64,000 nucleotides of DNA from Salegentibacter salinarum (GTDB lineage: Bacteria; Bacteroidota; Bacteroidia; Flavobacteriales; Flavobacteriaceae): the NCBI RefSeq assembly GCF_900168115.1, contig NZ_FUZC01000012.1:1-64000 (forward strand), written 5' to 3'. Each line of letters starts with the position of its first letter. The stretch's first letter is position 1. Positions 16,457 to 26,539 of the stretch are shown here, in pieces. The notes below the pieces were generated by a model. The model was not told where the DNA came from. It made no database searches and saw only the letters and a list, made by a program, of their open reading frames with translations. The position numbers and the translations under genes were made by a program.

Positions 16457-17443
16457 TTAACCGGCAAATTCCAGTACATCAGTAGAGTTAAAACCAATTT
16501 TTATCTTATCGGCCACATTGGTGTCTTTAGTTACTACTGAAATTTGATGCCCGTTATCCAGTTTCAGCAGCAAATGGGTGCCATTTCCCATAAAGGTTTT
16601 CTTTAATACCCGTGCGTGGGTTACATATTCGCATTCCTCGTTAATACTAAGGTTTTCGTTGCGAATGGCGTGGCTACATTTTGGATTTAAGGGACAATCA
16701 AATGCGGTTTGTAATTCTTTATTCAGCTGAATGGTATTTCCGAAGAGCGAAGCCACATAAACCGAATTTGGCTTGATATATAAATTTGAAGCCTGGTCTT
16801 TTTGAATCACTTTTCCATGCTGAAGAATAAGAATTTCATCGGCTACAGAAAGTGCATCCTGGGTATCGTGGGTTACAAAAATTGCAGTTACGCCGGTTTT
16901 CTTAATAACTTCAAACACCTGGCTACGTAGCTGCATTCTAAGCATTGCATCCAGGTTACTAAAAGGTTCATCTAAAATCAGCAAAGAAGGATTTGGGGCC
17001 AAAGCCCGGGCCAATGCCACTCGCTGCTGCTGCCCGCCAGAAAGTTGATGGGGATAGCGTTTTTCGAGTCCACTAAGTCCGACCAGCTCTAGCATTTCCA
17101 ATGCACGTTCTTTTTTATTTTTAAGTTTAGAAATTCCGTAGGTAACATTTTTAAGCAGATTAAAATGCGGAAATAAAGCATATTCCTGGAAAACCAAACC
17201 TATTTTTCGTTTTTCTGGCGGAACAAGTTTTTTTACAGAAGAAAGTTCTTTGTTATTGAGAATAATGCTACCGTGATCGGGGCGTTCCAGGCCGGCGATT
17301 AGCCTGACCAGGGTGGTTTTTCCACTTCCGCTTTCACCCACAATGGCGCAAACATCTCCTTCCTCTAAATTAAAGGAAACCTCATCTAAGGCAAAAGTTT
17401 TGCCTTTATCGAAGCTTTTAGAAATAGAATTTACGCTTAGCAT
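16457..17443 (-). CDS. Ferric iron ABC transporter, ATP-binding protein (FbpC-like)
   Basis: ATPase of an iron(III) importer, 328 residues. Walker A is GESGSGKT (36-43), the signature is LSGGQQQR (134-141), Walker B is LLILDEP (154-160), and the switch histidine is in FVTHD. The long C-terminal regulatory region has a TOBE-like end (HISVVTKDTN). It follows the permease gene by 1 bp, and together with the binding protein forms a complete FbpABC system. A sulfate or polyamine transporter could look similar from the ATPase alone, but the binding protein points to iron. Confidence 0.9.
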   Translation of the reverse strand: MLSVNSISKSFDKGKTFALDEVSFNLEEGDVCAIVGESGSGKTTLVRLIAGLERPDHGSIILNNKELSSVKKLVPPEKRKIGLVFQEYALFPHFNLLKNVTYGISKLKNKKERALEMLELVGLSGLEKRYPHQLSGGQQQRVALARALAPNPSLLILDEPFSNLDAMLRMQLRSQVFEVIKKTGVTAIFVTHDTQDALSVADEILILQHGKVIQKDQASNLYIKPNSVYVASLFGNTIQLNKELQTAFDCPLNPKCSHAIRNENLSINEECEYVTHARVLKKTFMGNGTHLLLKLDNGHQISVVTKDTNVADKIKIGFNSTDVLEFAG

Positions 17444-17444
17444 T

Positions 17445-19109
17445 TTATTCTTTTATCAATAATTTGTTTAAAAATATCACGGGAATGGTAGCCGTGAAGA
17501 TAATAAATAAAGAAGGAATTGCAGCTTCCATTACCATTTCGTCACTCGCATACTCAAAAGCTTTCACGGCGAGAGTGTTAATATGAAATGGTTTTAAAAT
17601 TAAGGTTAATGGTAATTCTTTTAAAACATCTATAAATACAAGGATCACCGCGCTTAAAATTCCGGTTTTTATCAAAGGAAATTCAATTTTAAAAAAGGTT
17701 TTAAAATTCCCTACTCCCAGCATTTTAGAAGAATCAGGAATACTATTACTTACTTTTAAAGCCGTGGATTCTATAGGATTATAAGCTACCGCTAAAAATC
17801 TAACACTATATGCATAAACCAGTGCGACTAGCGTCCCATTAAATAAAAAGCCCGTTTCTACACCAAAAACCGAATCCATGGTGTTGATAAACCACTTATC
17901 AAAAGCCAGGGTTGGAATCATAATCCCAATAGCCACCACCGCCCCGGGAATGGCATAACCTAATATCCCTAACCTTGAGATACTTTTAATTCCGTTTATA
18001 CTACTCCATTTCGCAAAATATATAAGTAAAGTTGCAAAAAGAACAGTTACTAAAGAAGTGACTAAAGCAATTCCAAAACTTTGCAGGGAGAGCATAATAA
18101 AATCGAGATCAAACACTTTTTCAGCGGTTAAAAACGCCCAATAGATCAGTTGTCCCACGGGGATAAAAAAGCCCAAGATGACAGGGATTAAAACCAAGAG
18201 AAACTTTAACCATTGCATGGGTTTGGTTCCTAACTTTCTGTGGGTACGGCCGGAGGCTTTGTTTCCGGTAAACCGGATGTTTTTACGCTGCCATTTTTCG
18301 AATAAAATAAGGGCAAAAACAATAAAAATAAGTAATGCCGAAAGATAGACCGCGGTTTCCGGTTCTTCCAGAGAAAACCAAGCCCTGAAAATTCCGGTGG
18401 TAAAGGTATTCACCCCAAAATATTGAGCAGCGCCATAATCGTTTAAAACTTCCATTAAGACCAGGATGAGTCCGGCGATAATTGCCGGCCTTGCCAGGGG
18501 TAACATCAACCGGAAAAAAGATTTAAATTCTCCTACTCCAAGCATTGTAGAAGCTTCGAGAAGATTTCCTGCCTGATTTAAAAAGAATGCACGGGAACTT
18601 ACATATACATAAGGAAAAAGTGAAATACTAAGTACAAAAGCCAATCCGAATTTATTCATAATATCTATCCGAATAAATTCGAGGTTTAATCCTCTTAAAA
18701 TAAGTTCCAGGCTTCCGCCATAATCGAAAACTCCAGCGTAAGCATAAGCCACGATGTAAGAAGGAATAGTCAATGGAAGAATAAGCAACCATTCCAGCTG
18801 CTTTCTAAATGGGAATTCAAACCGGGCCACCAACCAGGCGGTGCCGACTCCCATAATAAGTACTAATAAGCTACAGAAAAAAATGAGAAAAAAGGAATTT
18901 CCAATATAATCTACCAAAAGGTTATCTACCAGATGCCCCCAGGTCTCCCCGGGTCCTGCCAGTAATTTTACGGCAATGGCGATAACCGGTAGGGCAATAA
19001 AAAGAACGATGGCCAATGTAAATATTGACCATCGATTTGTATCTCTTTTAAGTCGCCGTAACCTTGATTTTATCGAAAATATATCACTACTTCCAGCCTG
19101 CTTCATCAA
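17445..19109 (-). CDS. Ferric iron ABC transporter, permease (FbpB-like)
   Basis: Fused double permease of 554 residues with two MetI-like halves and about twelve membrane segments. Each half carries an EAA-type loop (EASTMLGVGEFKSFFRLMLP in the first and SSKMLGVGNFKTFFKIEFP in the second), the cytoplasmic surface that contacts the ATPase. The two-halves-in-one layout is usual for FbpB. Its start overlaps the end of the binding-protein gene by 23 bp and its stop lies 1 bp before the ATPase gene, so the three are one translationally coupled unit. Confidence 0.92.
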   Translation of the reverse strand: MMKQAGSSDIFSIKSRLRRLKRDTNRWSIFTLAIVLFIALPVIAIAVKLLAGPGETWGHLVDNLLVDYIGNSFFLIFFCSLLVLIMGVGTAWLVARFEFPFRKQLEWLLILPLTIPSYIVAYAYAGVFDYGGSLELILRGLNLEFIRIDIMNKFGLAFVLSISLFPYVYVSSRAFFLNQAGNLLEASTMLGVGEFKSFFRLMLPLARPAIIAGLILVLMEVLNDYGAAQYFGVNTFTTGIFRAWFSLEEPETAVYLSALLIFIVFALILFEKWQRKNIRFTGNKASGRTHRKLGTKPMQWLKFLLVLIPVILGFFIPVGQLIYWAFLTAEKVFDLDFIMLSLQSFGIALVTSLVTVLFATLLIYFAKWSSINGIKSISRLGILGYAIPGAVVAIGIMIPTLAFDKWFINTMDSVFGVETGFLFNGTLVALVYAYSVRFLAVAYNPIESTALKVSNSIPDSSKMLGVGNFKTFFKIEFPLIKTGILSAVILVFIDVLKELPLTLILKPFHINTLAVKAFEYASDEMVMEAAIPSLFIIFTATIPVIFLNKLLIKE

Positions 19110-20130
19110 ATAGCATTACTGCTTTTTTATTATTCTCTCCCAGTGTAGATAGATTAAGTGTGTCTTCTTTAAATTCTCCCCATTCCTGGAGTAAATTTGC
19201 AGGAGCTACATCTTCGTTCACCGGATATTCATAATTGGAATGCGCGAATATTTTCTGAGCTTCTTCAGAAATTAAAAATTCAATAAACTTGATCGCGTTT
19301 TCTTTATTAGGAGCGTGTTTTGCAACGCCGGCACCACTAACATTTATATGGGTACCACGACCATCCTGATTGGGAAAGAAAAGTTCAATATTTTCTCCCG
19401 CCTTTACTTCTTCAGGATCTTCAGAATTTAGCATTTTTCCGATGTAATAAGTGTTCACCACGGCAAGATCACCTTCCCCCGCAACCACGGCTTTTACCTG
19501 GTCACGATCGTTTCCTTTGGGTGCCCGTGCCATATTTTCTACGACTGCTTCTGCCCATTTTTTAGCTTCTTCTTCCCCGTTATGAACCATAATAGAAGCC
19601 ATTAACGATTGGTTATAGATATTTCCCGAAGAACGAATCAATAATTTATCGTTCCATTTATCTGAAGCCAGATCTTCGTAAGTAGATAATTCACTTTCGT
19701 CTACCCTATCCTTTGCATAAGTAATAACCCGGGCTCTTTTTGTAAGTCCGAACCAATGATTATCGGCATCCTTAAGGTGAGAGGGAATTGTTTCTTCAAG
19801 AATATCTGAAGATACGGCTTGCAAAAGATCACTGCTTTTAGCTCTTTCTAATCTCCCGGCATCAACCGTTATTAAAACATCTGCAGGAGACTGTTCCCCT
19901 TCCATTCTCATTTTTTGAATAAGTTCATCGGCGCTAGCGTTAATCACGTTTACGGTAATTCCGGTTTCCTCTTCAAACATTTTAAACAATTCCTGATCAG
20001 ATTCGTAATGCCTGTGGGTATAAACATTTACTTCTTCTGAAGTTTTAATTTCTGCCTCATCTTTCTTATCAGAATCTTTACAAGACATTAGCAAAATAAT
20101 ACTGAAAATGGCAACTATTAATTTTTTCAT
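19087..20130 (-). CDS. Ferric iron-binding lipoprotein (FutA/FbpA-like)
   Basis: Extracytoplasmic Fe(III)-binding protein, 347 residues, anchored as a lipoprotein (lipobox ILLMSC, C17). The iron ligand region YTHRHYESD (37-45) is very close to the FutA motif, and the tyrosine pair Y228-Y229 in VNTYYIGKM matches the FbpA/FutA ligands. The ATG at 20130 is chosen over a GTG three codons upstream because it directly precedes the signal peptide. It is the first gene of the ABC transporter operon, with a TATATTTG box and an iron-box-like dyad immediately upstream. Confidence 0.93.
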   Translation of the reverse strand: MKKLIVAIFSIILLMSCKDSDKKDEAEIKTSEEVNVYTHRHYESDQELFKMFEEETGITVNVINASADELIQKMRMEGEQSPADVLITVDAGRLERAKSSDLLQAVSSDILEETIPSHLKDADNHWFGLTKRARVITYAKDRVDESELSTYEDLASDKWNDKLLIRSSGNIYNQSLMASIMVHNGEEEAKKWAEAVVENMARAPKGNDRDQVKAVVAGEGDLAVVNTYYIGKMLNSEDPEEVKAGENIELFFPNQDGRGTHINVSGAGVAKHAPNKENAIKFIEFLISEEAQKIFAHSNYEYPVNEDVAPANLLQEWGEFKEDTLNLSTLGENNKKAVMLFDEAGWK

Positions 20131-20152
20131 TTTAATCACTTTTAAATTGGAA

Positions 20153-20184
20153 CAAATATAATTATTTAGAATAGGTTTAAATAA
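20153..20184 (-). promoter_or_regulatory. Promoter box and iron-box-like dyad upstream of the ferric ABC operon
   Basis: TATATTTG (20153-20160, minus strand) lies 22 bp before the ATG at 20130. Directly upstream of it is the dyad TTATTTA-N9-TAAATAA (20162-20184), within the -10 to -35 space where a repressor would act. A similar dyad precedes the DUF4856 gene. The assignment to Fur or DtxR/IdeR is inference. Confidence 0.5.
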
Positions 20185-20224: not shown

Positions 20225-22696
20225 CTATAATTTAAACTGAAGTGTAGTATACCAGGTTAATGGTTGCGCGGGTATGATTCCCGGCCCGGGATATCCGGTA
20301 GCTCTTCTTGTAAAATAGCTGTTATTTAATAGGTTATTTATACCGGTTTCAAGTTTAAATCGCTTGTAGGAATAGGAAAAAGAAAGGTCCATGATGCCGT
20401 AAGCCGGAATTTCACCTTCAATCCCTCTTTGCGAGTCCCGGCGATCTTGTGCTGCATTGGTAGCATCGGTATACTGTTCAGATAGATAAGTATACTGTAA
20501 GCTGCCCAATAGGTTTTTATATCCAAAACTCATCCCCGCCTTTAGGTTTACTGCAGGAATGAATTCTACCTGATTTCCTTCTACATTGGTCTGTGCAGAA
20601 GAAGTATATTCAGAATCGGTAAAAGCAGCATTTAGAAAAATGCTGGACAGATAATCTTGATTCTCCCCAAATAATATATTTTTTAAATTCCATTCTCCAA
20701 AAGCTTCCACTCCATAAATAAAAGCATCTCCAATATTTCCTCTAAATCTAACCAAACGACCGGTCTCCACCATTTCTCCCGAGGCATTTTCCCTTTCTTC
20801 TGCTCTAAGAACCTCTCCTATCCTGTTATTATATCTAAGTCCAAAAATACCGGTATCATAAGAGAAATCTTTGTATCTGCCTCGTAAGCCTAAATCGGCA
20901 GTAAAACCTTCTTCATCGGTAATATTGGGATCAACCTGGAAAACAGGATTCACCACCCGTATATCATTAAAAGTCACCGAACGGTAGTTTTGAGAGAAGT
21001 TACCATATAGCTCAGTTTGCGGAGTGAATTTATAAGCTGCTCCCGCACCCAACAATACAAAACCTCTTTCAAAACCCCTGTTATCTGCGATTGTCTCATT
21101 TTGTAGAACATTCCCAGCCAGATCGGTGAAAATGTTTTTAAAGCTGCCTTCGCTTTGTGTATGTATGTATTCAAATCTAAAACCCGGTGTAATTGAAAAA
21201 CGCTCGGTAAGATGAAAAATGTTTTCCCCGAAAATCGCCAGGTTTTTATTCGGAAACTGGAATTCGGACTGCCGTGGGTAATTTGGATATGATGAGGAGG
21301 CAAAACTAAAATCAGGATTAGCTGCAGCGCTTCCGGGCCCTTGTCTTTGGGTATTATCAGCATCATAATATTTACTTCCTATAAGAAATACCGATTCTTC
21401 TCCCAGAAAATTATAGCGAGTAAGCAAACGAGCTTCGGCGCCCCAGTTATTAAATGCATCAAATAATAGTTCTCTTGGCTCTTCGGGGTCATCTGGTTGT
21501 GAAACCCTGTTTTGACGATATCCCAGTGCCTGCCGGGAGGCATCAAGACCAAAAAGATTAAGACTGAAATCTGTTCTATCAGAAATCTCATGCTGAAACT
21601 TTAACGCAAATAGATTCCAGTTTACATCAAACCAGTTTCGCGAACGATTGCTGTAATTAGGGTTTTCATAAAACTGAGCATCGGTTAAACCGCCGGGCTG
21701 CTGGGCAAGGTAATCCAGCCAGGTATATTCAAAACTCAACTGGGTTTTCTCACTAAATTTCCAAGCCAGATGCGCAAAAGCATTATGAGATTCATATTGG
21801 GAATTTGGTCTAAATCCATTTCCCGATTTATAATTATAATAAGTGTAATAACTAAATTTACCTACAGTTCCACTCGCACTATTAAAACTGGTAAAAAGAT
21901 CGTAAGATCCTACCGACTGCCGATTGATAAATTCGAATTTTTTAACCGGATTTGGCTTTTTAAACCTGAAATTAATAAGGCCGCCAAACTGGGTTCCATA
22001 CTGAAGCGAAGCAGCTCCACGTACCACTTGTATCTCGCTCAAAGCTGCGGGTGGCGGGGTATAATAACTTTCCGGATAGCCAAGAACATCTGCCGAAATA
22101 TCATATCCATTTTGGCGAGTATTAAAATTTTGCGTGCGGTTTGGATCCAGCCCTCTTCCTCCTATATTTAACTGTAAACCGGCATCTCCATTATCATAAA
22201 TATTTAGTCCTACCACATGGTTATAAATTTGCCTGGCATTATTTGCGGCTAAATTCCCGGTTACTTTATCCATTAACACCACTTCACTTTTTTTACCGGC
22301 ATAGATGGCGGTACCTTCTACTTCTTTAAGCCGACGTAAAGCAAATAATTGCTCACGGCGTTGGGTAATAACCACTTCAGAAAGACTTTCAGCTAAGGGC
22401 TCAAGTTCAAATATTACTTCGGTATTTTCGGTAACTTCAATTTCTCTTTCTTCAATTTGAAATTCAAAGCTATAAACCACAAATTCATAAGTTGCCGGCG
22501 GCAGTGCTTCAATAGCAAAATCTCCATTCTCATCGGCAAGCGTAAGATTTCCGGTTGTTTTATTATAAATTTCAGCATAGGGAACGCCGGAATTATCTTC
22601 AGAAGAAATCACCTTCCCTTTTATAGACTGGGCATAAGACCCGGTAAAAGTCAGGAAAATTAAACAAAAGAAACTAAAGGCCCTTGATTTGGTCAT
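20225..22696 (-). CDS. TonB-dependent outer-membrane receptor, probably for iron chelates
   Basis: Outer-membrane TonB-dependent receptor of 823 residues. It has a signal peptide ending GSYAQ (about 23), a carboxypeptidase-regulatory-like beta-sandwich (about 24-100), a TonB-box-like SLSEVVITQRR and a plug (about 115-240, with GLQLNIGGRGLDP and VVRGAASLQYGTQFGG). A 22-strand barrel ends in an aromatic/hydrophobic strand (TWYTTLQFKL). The plug most resembles FecA-type siderophore/citrate receptors. The start overlaps the end of the HTTM gene by 23 bp, and the ferric ABC operon follows, so iron uptake is the likely role. The ligand is unknown. Confidence 0.9.
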   Translation of the reverse strand: MTKSRAFSFFCLIFLTFTGSYAQSIKGKVISSEDNSGVPYAEIYNKTTGNLTLADENGDFAIEALPPATYEFVVYSFEFQIEEREIEVTENTEVIFELEPLAESLSEVVITQRREQLFALRRLKEVEGTAIYAGKKSEVVLMDKVTGNLAANNARQIYNHVVGLNIYDNGDAGLQLNIGGRGLDPNRTQNFNTRQNGYDISADVLGYPESYYTPPPAALSEIQVVRGAASLQYGTQFGGLINFRFKKPNPVKKFEFINRQSVGSYDLFTSFNSASGTVGKFSYYTYYNYKSGNGFRPNSQYESHNAFAHLAWKFSEKTQLSFEYTWLDYLAQQPGGLTDAQFYENPNYSNRSRNWFDVNWNLFALKFQHEISDRTDFSLNLFGLDASRQALGYRQNRVSQPDDPEEPRELLFDAFNNWGAEARLLTRYNFLGEESVFLIGSKYYDADNTQRQGPGSAAANPDFSFASSSYPNYPRQSEFQFPNKNLAIFGENIFHLTERFSITPGFRFEYIHTQSEGSFKNIFTDLAGNVLQNETIADNRGFERGFVLLGAGAAYKFTPQTELYGNFSQNYRSVTFNDIRVVNPVFQVDPNITDEEGFTADLGLRGRYKDFSYDTGIFGLRYNNRIGEVLRAEERENASGEMVETGRLVRFRGNIGDAFIYGVEAFGEWNLKNILFGENQDYLSSIFLNAAFTDSEYTSSAQTNVEGNQVEFIPAVNLKAGMSFGYKNLLGSLQYTYLSEQYTDATNAAQDRRDSQRGIEGEIPAYGIMDLSFSYSYKRFKLETGINNLLNNSYFTRRATGYPGPGIIPAQPLTWYTTLQFKL

Positions 22697-24038
22697 GGAA
22701 TGGTAATGTAAAAGTTTTGTGCTTAAAGGAGTCTTTCTCCTCTAGCAAATTGACGTTAGGATCTATATAAGGCGCACTTTGTCTTCCGTTAAGTGCTACA
22801 TAACTTTCCACGTAAATTTCGATATTTTCGTGACCATCTTTTTTAAAATGATCTGCCAGATAATGCGCGTATTGCAAAATAAAATCTGGTTGTGTGGACA
22901 TTTGTTTTTCCTGAAACGGCGTTAAAAAATCTGAATTATCTACATAAAAACGTTTTCCGGTTTCTCCATCCACTACTTTGAATTGTGCATAACCGGCTTT
23001 TTCCATCAACATTACCCGCCAGGAAAACCTAAAACCTTCTTCGGTCCAGAAAAGTTCACCGGGATAAAGTAAATATCTCCAGGGGAGCAATAGCTGAACG
23101 ATAAAGAAAAGGCTCAAAAAACTTAAAAGAAATTTCCTTTTGTTCGAAAGATAATTTAACGCCCTGCCATTATCAAAACGCGCTTTTACAATTCCGAACA
23201 GGCGGGAAATCTTTTCCAGGATTTTATGATGAATTCCAGGATCAAAAAAGATAATGGCACTTACAATCATAATATACGGGAACATTCCAATAGGAAATAA
23301 AACCCGGGTTAATACGTGAAATATCACAACCATTACAAATGCAAAAAGCCGGGTTGGGCGGTACAACAATAAGAATGGAATTAAAAGATCATATAACATC
23401 CCACTCCAGCTGAATGCGTAATGCACCCATTCCTGTTGCAGCAAATCACCTAAAAAAGGAAGATCGTATTTAGACGGAAGCCATATTTTAAGAGGCATAG
23501 CCTTTAAAAGCCAATCGAAATTTATTTTGGCCAAACCGGCATAGAAATAAACTATCCCAAGCAGTAGTTTAATACTGTCTATACACCAGCGGGGAATTTT
23601 TTGAAAAGCAATACCTGTATTTTTCTTTGCATCTAAAGAGAAATAGGCATTTGCAGGAAGAAAAATGAGCAAAAAACTGAGGATACTAATAAAATAATAA
23701 TGGTTTAAATAGGTGGTTTTATCCATCAGCTCTATATAAGTAAAGCTGATAAAAAAGGTGATAATGGCCAGCCGATACTTATAACCAATCCCAACGAAGA
23801 ATGCTGAAAGTCCACAGATTAAAAAAATGATGTAGGTAAAATTACCCAGGGGTTTTACCCATTCAAAACCGTAATAGGAAAATGAAAATTCAGGGAGGAT
23901 GTATAATTTTTCAATCCATCCATTTAACCAGAATCGAATAATACTGGCCAGCATCATAAAACCGAAAAAAACCCGAAAGACTGCTAAAGGAGCGGCCTGG
24001 GTTTTTTCGTTAAAATATGATGTAATCTTCTGATTCAT
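22674..24038 (-). CDS. HTTM-domain membrane protein, homologue of vitamin K-dependent gamma-carboxylase
   Basis: Inner-membrane protein of 454 residues with about six to seven helices and a periplasmic C-terminal domain (from about 315). Two stretches match vitamin K-dependent gamma-glutamyl carboxylase. ELMDKTTYLNHYYF (103-116) corresponds to the human DKTSWNNHSYL segment that carries the catalytic lysine K218, so K107 is the equivalent. LFPIGMFPYIMIVS (247-260) is the IGMFPYVM region. It is shorter than the human enzyme, as bacterial members are. It lies between imelysin (9-bp gap) and the TonB receptor (overlap). The family is clear; carboxylase activity and the substrate here are inference. 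Confidence 0.85.
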   Translation of the reverse strand: MNQKITSYFNEKTQAAPLAVFRVFFGFMMLASIIRFWLNGWIEKLYILPEFSFSYYGFEWVKPLGNFTYIIFLICGLSAFFVGIGYKYRLAIITFFISFTYIELMDKTTYLNHYYFISILSFLLIFLPANAYFSLDAKKNTGIAFQKIPRWCIDSIKLLLGIVYFYAGLAKINFDWLLKAMPLKIWLPSKYDLPFLGDLLQQEWVHYAFSWSGMLYDLLIPFLLLYRPTRLFAFVMVVIFHVLTRVLFPIGMFPYIMIVSAIIFFDPGIHHKILEKISRLFGIVKARFDNGRALNYLSNKRKFLLSFLSLFFIVQLLLPWRYLLYPGELFWTEEGFRFSWRVMLMEKAGYAQFKVVDGETGKRFYVDNSDFLTPFQEKQMSTQPDFILQYAHYLADHFKKDGHENIEIYVESYVALNGRQSAPYIDPNVNLLEEKDSFKHKTFTLPFHDQIKGL

Positions 24039-24047
24039 CCGGAAATA

Positions 24048-25169
24048 TTAATCGCCGTCAGAATCAACATAATCTACACTTATTGAAAGTGCCTGCATCA
24101 TATCTACTTTCAGCAAAATTACATTTTGCTGTAACTCATCATAAGCCGCTAACATTTCGTTATTATTGTTTTCAACCTGGCTAACAAAACTGTTGTCCAG
24201 CACCTCCGCATGTGCTCTTATTATATCAAACTGGCTGTTTATAAGCTTGCTTAAATCTTCACCGTTTTTAATGCTGTTAAGATAATCCAGGTAATCATCA
24301 TACCCGGGGCCTTCCTGGCTGCCGTTAAAATGACGGCCGTTAAAGAAATTCTGAGTAGTTTGTAAAGACTTTAGATACAGATCTTTTGAAAGTGAAGGTG
24401 AATAATATGCTTCTACCGCACCCGGTACCGGATTTCCTGTGAAAACACCCGCAGGTATTCCTATTTTTCCCGAGCGAACAAATTTTTCGTAATAGAGAAC
24501 GTAATCATTTGTTATACGATCTACTGCGCCTGTACTGGACGAGCCTGTATTTGAAACAAAATCATCGCGAAAAGAGTCCTTCCATCCTGAATGCACTGTA
24601 TTAGTTAACGCATTTATCCTTTTAGAAACATCATTTAGATAATTTTTATAAACCTCTGCATTTTCGTGAGAAGTATAAAATTCTACGATTTCTGTATCGG
24701 TTTCAGCAAGTCCGTTTAGCAGGTAATCAAGTGCAGGAAAGCCCTGTTCATCATAAGCAGAAGGCAATTCCAGATTATAATCATCAGTAGAAATTTTTCC
24801 GTCCACACCGGCTGCATCTAATGGGTAAGTATTTAGATTAGAACGATAATTTATAGCTTCAGCCTCTCCTATTTCAAATAATGAAACCGTTTGAAACCCA
24901 AGGTAACCGTCCTCGTAGGCGCTGCGTAATTCATTTAAAGTTGTTTCGGAAGGATCACTGGTAAAAGCAAACGTTTTCTCTTCCAGAGTTTGAGTGATAC
25001 CTTCAAAATTTTCAAAAGATGGAATAATTATATTATCTGCCCAATTCTGAAGCATTTCTCCACGATCAAAAGAATCGGTATTTGCACCATCATCAGTATC
25101 TTCCGTATCACTACAGGAAATCACTGCTGCAAGTAAGAACAAGGTTGAAAATCTTAGTATCCTGATCAT
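24048..25169 (-). CDS. Imelysin-like (IrpA/M75-fold) lipoprotein
   Basis: Exported lipoprotein of 373 residues (lipobox AAVISC, C19) with the all-helical imelysin fold. It reads EMLQNWADNIIIPSFENF near the start and RITNDYVLYYEKFVRSGKIGIPAG in the second half. The place of the canonical GxHxxE motif is taken by G143-F-P-A-L-D148, so the histidine and glutamate are both missing. Proteins of this family are iron-regulated and often sit beside iron transporters; peptidase activity has never been secure. It is the second gene of the DUF4856-imelysin-HTTM-TonB receptor unit. Its role in iron binding or delivery is inferred. Confidence 0.85.
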   Translation of the reverse strand: MIRILRFSTLFLLAAVISCSDTEDTDDGANTDSFDRGEMLQNWADNIIIPSFENFEGITQTLEEKTFAFTSDPSETTLNELRSAYEDGYLGFQTVSLFEIGEAEAINYRSNLNTYPLDAAGVDGKISTDDYNLELPSAYDEQGFPALDYLLNGLAETDTEIVEFYTSHENAEVYKNYLNDVSKRINALTNTVHSGWKDSFRDDFVSNTGSSSTGAVDRITNDYVLYYEKFVRSGKIGIPAGVFTGNPVPGAVEAYYSPSLSKDLYLKSLQTTQNFFNGRHFNGSQEGPGYDDYLDYLNSIKNGEDLSKLINSQFDIIRAHAEVLDNSFVSQVENNNNEMLAAYDELQQNVILLKVDMMQALSISVDYVDSDGD

Positions 25170-25234: not shown

Positions 25235-26443
25235 TTATTCAGATGCCTGCTCCACAGTAAAATCAAATGAAGCAGCAATTTCTTCAGAAATAGTATCAAG
25301 AGTTTCCGGGGTCACATCCCAAAAACCATCTCCAGCCATTAACTGCTCCAGGTAATCTTCTACCTTTTCAGCCGAAATATAAGGAGATCCTGTTGCCGGA
25401 TTATGAGTAAACATAAGGCTATAAATAAAGCCATAGCCTTCAGAAAGAGAATGGAAGGCTACTCCATCCTGACCTTCAGCCAGTTGATTTTTACCGGCTT
25501 GTAGATAATAGATGGCACGCACTGCGATTATGGTTGAAACGTTCTCACGAATAATAGCAACCTGTTGGTCACGAAGATCATAATCCCCGGCAACGATTGC
25601 AGCTCTACCGGTTTTGAAAGCTTCGAAAGTTTCTTCAGCAATACCTTCAAAATCACTATCATTATTTACACTTCCCATATATTTAAAAAGAAGGATGTCA
25701 TCACTTTCATTTAAATCAGTATTAGGATTTTCAGAAGGAATGGAAGAATCTCCATAAAGGTAGCCATAAGCCTCGTCCCACTTATGTTCCATAGTAGTAT
25801 AGCTTTTTCCTTCCTCTACATTTTCTTCGTCGTTATTAACAAGATTATCTCCTTCGTCAAGCACTTCTACAGAAAGATAATTGTTAAGCATTTGGTCGGT
25901 TACAAGCGCACCAATTAATCCTTTAGCAAAAGCCTGATCGGGCTCTAAACCTTTTTCGTCTATATATCGCTCTGAAGATCCGGCTGCAATTTGACCTGCT
26001 TTCCCGGGAGCTGCAAGCTCATTTTCATTAGGAAAAACCTCATTAGCCTGAATACTAATAAATTCTTCAAAATCGTTTTTTATTTCGTTACTGGCTACTG
26101 TATTTGTAGAAAAGTACAATCTTGAGGCAGCTACTTTGCTTTTAATGCTTTTTGAAGTTTCGTTCAGCTCAGGGCTTGTAAAAGGATCGTTTTCATTAGA
26201 AAACATATTAGACATGCTGCTTTGAGTAGCATTCTCGAAATTATGGAATTCGGCAAACAATTCCTTTACCATGCTTAATCTTTGGGTTTGTCCTGTGTAA
26301 CTTACGGTTGATTCCCCATCTCTCTCAAACGAGTATTGAGCAGGAACTTCAATTTGCTCATCTTCAGGTATTGTATCATCATCTGATGTACACGAAGTAA
26401 AGGCAAGGCCACTAAGAACAAGAGTTGTCAAAATCTTTTTCAT
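25235..26443 (-). CDS. DUF4856 lipoprotein
   Basis: Lipoprotein of 402 residues with a signal peptide and lipobox AFTSC (C18), followed by an acidic linker rich in Asp and Glu (19-32), as in proteins sent to the outer membrane or surface. The body matches the Bacteroidota DUF4856 family as I know it (opening YSFERDGESTVSYTGQTQRL; FIYSLMFTHNP later). The function is unknown. DUF4856 genes commonly precede an imelysin gene, as here. The protein is strongly acidic throughout, which would suit metal binding, but no defined site is visible. It heads the operon and has a good promoter with an iron-box-like dyad. Confidence 0.8.
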   Translation of the reverse strand: MKKILTTLVLSGLAFTSCTSDDDTIPEDEQIEVPAQYSFERDGESTVSYTGQTQRLSMVKELFAEFHNFENATQSSMSNMFSNENDPFTSPELNETSKSIKSKVAASRLYFSTNTVASNEIKNDFEEFISIQANEVFPNENELAAPGKAGQIAAGSSERYIDEKGLEPDQAFAKGLIGALVTDQMLNNYLSVEVLDEGDNLVNNDEENVEEGKSYTTMEHKWDEAYGYLYGDSSIPSENPNTDLNESDDILLFKYMGSVNNDSDFEGIAEETFEAFKTGRAAIVAGDYDLRDQQVAIIRENVSTIIAVRAIYYLQAGKNQLAEGQDGVAFHSLSEGYGFIYSLMFTHNPATGSPYISAEKVEDYLEQLMAGDGFWDVTPETLDTISEEIAASFDFTVEQASE

Positions 26444-26505: not shown

Positions 26506-26539
26506 CAACTATTATTAAGAATAATTTTAAATAAAATAA

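Follow-up and report, generated by a model that had tools for sequence, protein, structure and literature searches.

A predicted compact relative of vitamin K-dependent carboxylase encoded in an iron-linked operon of Salegentibacter salinarum

Does the gene at positions 22674..24038 (minus strand) of this stretch of Salegentibacter salinarum DNA encode an enzyme that makes gamma-carboxyglutamate (Gla), and, if so, on which protein? The window is the whole 64,000-nucleotide stretch that was analysed (NZ_FUZC01000012.1, assembly GCF_900168115.1). The chemistry of GGCX, the vitamin K-dependent carboxylase, is established in animals and possible in bacterial homologues. A first-pass annotation had described the product as GGCX-like, with a catalytic-lysine segment, in an iron operon, where it is accompanied by genes for a DUF4856 lipoprotein, an imelysin and a TonB-dependent receptor. 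The explanation that we favour, and to which we give an even chance, is that of a compact bacterial gamma-glutamyl carboxylase, encoded in an iron-limitation operon and acting on an exported partner, most likely the imelysin. Direct support comes from homology, the predicted fold, residue conservation, the operon and a Fur-like box.

The open reading frame was confirmed; it starts with ATG, encodes 454 amino acids (aa) and lies on the minus strand, which the annotation had left unstated, with many stops in plus strand frame 1 at 22674-24038. Profile searches identified an HTTM domain at aa 10-267 (PF05090, 270.3 bits) followed by a VKGC lumenal domain at aa 301-449 (PF22777, 212 bits; cut-off 27.7 for both). 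HTTM is a broad superfamily, with matches in 3/14 control genomes; PF22777 had matches in 0/14. Alignment with GGCX gave 425 paired columns that were 28% identical (E 2.1e-41), and the two segments to which attention had been drawn, DKTTYLNHYYF and IGMFPYIM, were present and aligned without gaps to GGCX DKTSWNNHSYL and IGMFSYVM. The predicted structure had the GGCX fold; a different fold in the C-terminal domain, which the annotation had said would count against its claim, was not found. Membership of the GGCX family is therefore supported by sequence, domain and predicted fold, which agree. The family is already known and named in Pfam, and the window protein is a variant of it and not a new kind.

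Residue roles were taken from a cryo-electron microscopy study (PMC12589487) and mapped using the sequence alignment. As given there, K218 of GGCX is the established catalytic base, N159 and H160 bind the Glu side chain, H160 also touches the quinone, N158 and R436 hold the substrate backbone and K154 reportedly forms hydrogen bonds with D442/Q446 where the domains meet. The base corresponded to K171 (codon 23526..23528, minus strand), in the segment YAGLAKINFDW, and the Glu side-chain pocket to N112-H113 (23700..23705, minus strand). The lysine that had been proposed as catalytic, K107 (23718..23720, minus strand), is the equivalent of the structural K154, whose partners are also present as D385 and Q389. 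The role given to that lysine did not stand, but the segment DKTTYLNHYYF matters still, since it holds N112 and H113. The IGMFPYIM segment contributes to the vitamin K ring pocket, with F248-F253 (FPIGMF; 23280..23297, minus strand) equivalent to GGCX F294-F299, F248 being F294 and F253 being F299. Further equivalents were F240 for F286, W176 for W223 and F336 for Y395, and the ring pocket residues F286, F294, F299 and W223 were all matched; at the pocket position M401 there was V.

Conservation was counted in 144 distinct operon-linked homologues, a set in which near relatives are over-weighted, 80 of its underlying loci having come from one identity-ranked scan. The equivalents of N159, H160, K218, W223, G259, F286 and F299 were unchanged in 144/144 and that of F294 was kept in 140; the Y395 position was Y in 105 and F in 39, and V replaced M401 throughout (144/144). 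Absence of K107 from most orthologues had been named as grounds for rejecting the annotation, and K was present at this position in 128/144. The most widely kept residue was K218 (clade A 49/49, a mixed group 12/12, clade B 16/16), even where H160 was Y or S, and K was also present in L139, L140 and L142, three rows belonging to none of these groups. Of the 49 clade A rows of the first alignment, all had K218, 48 had H160 and 38 had K154; L111 and L112, which were counted outside these rows although the tree places both in clade A, kept K218, H160 and N159 but not K154. All 16 clade B rows kept K218, H160 and N159 and had H for Y395.

The sole loss of H160 in clade A was in L079, a protein encoded outside the operon in which N159, H160, G259 and F286 were all lost. 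Its end branch (0.88) was the longest of its 9-row group, and its locus adjoins a different beta-barrel protein, with no DUF4856, imelysin or usual receptor nearby. Leaving the operon did not always lead to decay, because L087, L090 and L111, near which the other operon genes are absent, retained the same four residues. These three carboxylases, which are unlinked from imelysin (genomes G133, G095 and G163, respectively), are from family f52; in G163 an imelysin ending in D-G-D is located elsewhere in the genome (L264). A separate tree clade, L119-L122 (L119:6908-8311), had H160 changed to Y and N159 to S with K218 kept, and is possibly an epoxidase-only branch; a tetratricopeptide repeat protein was a scanned neighbour of L119 and L122. 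A second GGCX-like gene was present in the window genome (L123:6628-7947, G000, contig 17), 36% identical to the first and overlapping ribF by 11 bases, and its relatives are common in the family. It lies between genes that we recognise, by eye, as ribF and serS, in an apparent housekeeping cluster of pth, ribF, the carboxylase gene and serS.

The operon neighbours, all on the minus strand, are a DUF4856 lipoprotein of 402 aa (25235..26443), an imelysin (Peptidase_M75) lipoprotein of 373 aa (24048..25169) that is IPPA-like (the His of the GxHxxE motif is absent) and ends in D-G-D, and a TonB-dependent receptor of 823 aa (20225..22696), with an overlap of 23 bases between its start and the carboxylase gene. 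The order DUF4856, imelysin, carboxylase, TonB receptor was found in 18/20 near-relative loci and recurred at many loci in other families of the class. All four genes were present at 145/168 loci that encode such an imelysin (140/163 distinct imelysins), most of these loci having been chosen for holding a carboxylase; the unbiased figure is that from a class sample of 296 genomes. In this sample PF22777 was found in 81 genomes, DUF4856 in 72 and both in 55, that is, PF22777 occurred in 55/72 genomes with DUF4856 compared to 26/224 without it (Fisher p 7e-25, with kinship ignored and PF22777 of any clade counted). The DUF4856 protein had a confident predicted fold (predicted local distance difference test 92.8) with no clear match in the PDB, and resembled FEA1-related lipoproteins only weakly (26 bits against a cut-off of 250). 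In another genome (G054) the carboxylase copy (L082:7259-8642), beside DUF4856, imelysin and receptor genes, carried stops within one matched piece (one TAG, two TAA), which would reflect either an ongoing gene loss or an error in sequencing. On the other side of the receptor gene, an ATP-binding cassette transporter (solute-binding protein, permease and ATPase; 16457..20139, minus strand) is presumably a separate transcription unit, perhaps with ferric iron as its substrate.

The window was scored by mismatches against the Riemerella Fur consensus of PMC5609570. Over the 64 kb the closest match was a 19-mer with 2 mismatches at 26514..26532 (minus strand), 70 bases ahead of the start codon of DUF4856; the next, with 3 mismatches, was at 20164..20182 (minus strand), just upstream of the solute-binding-protein gene. 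The chance expectation for the window was 0.19 sites with 3 or fewer mismatches. A box with at most 3 mismatches within 250 bases upstream of DUF4856 was found in 117/141 distinct carboxylase-operon stretches and in 9/14 operons without the carboxylase, compared to 7/2,820 first-order shuffled controls. The operon promoter carries a predicted Fur box. According to PMC5609570, Riemerella genes named as TonB receptor, vitamin K-dependent gamma-carboxylase, imelysin and hypothetical protein were up-regulated 2.11-3.07 fold on iron restriction; these genes were matched to the window operon by names and not by sequences. Neighbouring genes, gene order and the Fur-like box support a link between the carboxylase operon and iron, in agreement with the annotation. 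Its suggestion of menaquinone as cofactor was also consistent with the genome, in which menA, the sole menaquinone-pathway gene checked, scored 260.5 bits (cut-off 102.15).

For S. salinarum we infer the chemistry, topology, substrate and regulation as follows. The carboxylase would be expressed from an operon of the Fur type when iron is limiting, and would be an inner-membrane protein whose active site is turned toward the periplasm, by analogy with the topology of GGCX. K171 would deprotonate menaquinol, and reaction with O2 would then give menaquinone epoxide and a strong base; this base would deprotonate a glutamate that N112 and H113 hold in place, and addition of CO2 would yield Gla. 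The enzyme would act on an exported partner before its arrival at the outer membrane, and the Gla would add a metal-binding site to that partner. The adjacent imelysin lipoprotein is the most likely candidate and DUF4856 a less likely one. Imelysin was ranked first because one locus (L081), in which a run of imelysin, di-haem oxidoreductase and imelysin genes precedes the carboxylase gene, pairs a carboxylase with imelysin, with no DUF4856 or TonB-receptor match in the 16-kb stretch; the adjacent imelysin ends in DGD. The protein is a genuine compact GGCX relative, probably active, within an iron-linked operon, and that it carboxylates glutamate at all seems somewhat better than an even bet. 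If it does, imelysin as the substrate is plausible, at rather less than an even chance. The fullest version, in which Bacteroidota make Gla under iron limitation and a menaquinol-driven carboxylase modifies a surface imelysin (or DUF4856), building an iron or calcium site that feeds the TonB receptor, is fairly unlikely.

Several results weigh against this explanation, beginning with the structure of the enzyme. The structural alignment stopped at about GGCX 507-510, so the remainder of the propeptide-binding domain, the arch, and S510 and R513 of the H2 network (PBD-2 of GGCX) were without counterpart; the model lacks the C-terminal portion of the substrate-binding domain. N158 was changed to L, K217 to A, H404 to M and R436 to Q, and the C99-C450 disulfide was not kept (F and Y, respectively). 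Animal-type propeptide targeting is not expected for such a protein, the core of which is still that of the GGCX family. The VKOR family (PF07884) had 0 matches in the genome, which is 99.98% complete, although the same profile finds matches in 3/14 control genomes; an epoxide would therefore be left with no known recycling route, and an epoxide-forming enzyme would oblige the cell to use another such route or to make quinone anew. As to the operon, L081 is one case only. PF22777 was absent (E <= 0.001) from 17/72 DUF4856 genomes, 12 of which hold DUF4856, imelysin and receptor together, and the imelysin tree required 6 changes of state in the operon carboxylase, at least 5 of these being forced by well-supported branches. 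Most of these changes appear to be losses on this unrooted tree, because rows without the carboxylase are mostly nested among rows with it. A lack of haem-copper oxidase was rejected as the cause of carboxylase absence, as COX1 was present in 71/72 DUF4856 genomes and gave no separation; the carboxylase was also absent from the one exception (G089). In Riemerella, deletion of fur in the presence of iron raised the same-named genes only 1.36-1.93 fold, and the carboxylase gene only 1.39 fold; these genes were still iron-responsive without fur (2.77 fold for the carboxylase gene), as reported in PMC5609570. Fur may not act alone there, because the iron response persists without it.

The glutamates of the operon neighbours also gave no sign of modification. 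Representatives with and without the carboxylase (134/14, 130/14 and 113/10) were compared, together with nearest-relative pairs (14, 14 and 10 for imelysin, DUF4856 and receptor; 35-80% identity). In these pairs the ratio of Glu lost to Glu gained without the carboxylase was 134/153 for imelysin, 109/144 for DUF4856 and 115/120 for the receptor, and in none of the three was there a column with Glu in at least 90% of proteins with the carboxylase and in none without it. Fixed Gla glutamates would be expected to drift after loss of the carboxylase, and no such drift was seen, which counts against Gla on the DUF4856 protein, imelysin or receptor, the idea put forward in the annotation. This is a weak negative, because the two sets are unequal, the set with the carboxylase leans to near relatives and pair partners were re-used. 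The window imelysin ends Y-V-D-S-D-G-D (24048-24065, minus strand), perhaps a metal site, and is the only D-x-D-G-D-stop pattern in the window genome; 43/43 aligned operon imelysins ended in D-G-D, and a carboxylase-linked imelysin outside these (L267) ended PSDSD. This ending was rejected as a carboxylase substrate tag, since imelysins of carboxylase-less operons share it (last D in 14/14). Among the literature matches listed, which were open-licence papers, there was no mass spectrometry for Gla in such bacterial systems and no functional study of a Bacteroidota carboxylase.

The absence of a net Glu change when the carboxylase gene is missing would also be expected of a menaquinol epoxidase or oxidase in which K171 and the quinone pocket are functional, with O2 being used and epoxide formed while glutamates are left unmodified. 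The retention of K218 where H160 is Y or S fits such an enzyme, and the Leptospira homologue is said to have epoxidase but not carboxylase activity. Because N159 and H160 of the Glu pocket are invariant in the operon members, although H160 also touches quinone, we regard this alternative as unlikely. It is fairly unlikely, too, that the enzyme is a true carboxylase with a substrate from outside the operon, which might be a different exported protein or peptide, an aspartate or a low-molecular-weight compound, for example a siderophore taken up by the receptor. The lack of a Gla-site signature in imelysin, DUF4856 and receptor, and the loss of the backbone-holding N158 and R436 and of the C-terminal part of the lumenal region, agree with a substrate of this kind; the tight linkage and constant order of the four genes across many families argue for a local partner. 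A membrane helper with no redox role, serving the export of the two lipoproteins as a chaperone, quinone carrier or anchor, would suit a facultative gene of the operon from a superfamily as broad as HTTM, but is very improbable given that the catalytic residues are invariant in operon members and have decayed in one protein outside the operon, L079.

A gamma-glutamyl carboxylase acting on an exported partner, the explanation that we favour, would make cultured Flavobacteriaceae places to look for Gla; marine strains of Salegentibacter, Christiangramia and Zobellia are among those in which the gene was found. The homologues form a large conserved group in which the catalytic set is complete, the substrate domain is shortened, the operon recurs and a signal of iron is seen. 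They provide an enzyme of small size for studies of mechanism, and the genomes that have or lack the gene make up a natural comparison set. Detection of Gla would tie vitamin K chemistry to bacterial metal capture, and animal vitamin K carboxylation would then have a bacterial counterpart in metal uptake.

Compared with GGCX (PDB 9wfc, 9l6q, 9bux and others), the window protein ends early, the arch, the H2 region and the C99-C450 disulfide being found only in GGCX; it has A, L, M and V for K217, N158, H404 and M401, and it is encoded in an iron operon of a genome without VKOR. SdpB-type HTTM proteins, which presumably include the HTTM-matching protein of Bacillus subtilis, share the HTTM membrane domain, to which the window carboxylase adds PF22777. 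The Leptospira homologue is likewise a bacterial member of the GGCX family; it reportedly lacks the K218 base that the window carboxylase keeps. The existence of this homologue is recorded in PMC4555120. The Pseudomonas PA4370-PA4373 operon, as described in PMC3143127, is likewise iron-linked and encodes an imelysin-like protein of the IPPA kind; unlike it, the window operon has no adjacent di-haem peroxidase gene and carries those for the carboxylase, DUF4856 and a TonB receptor instead.

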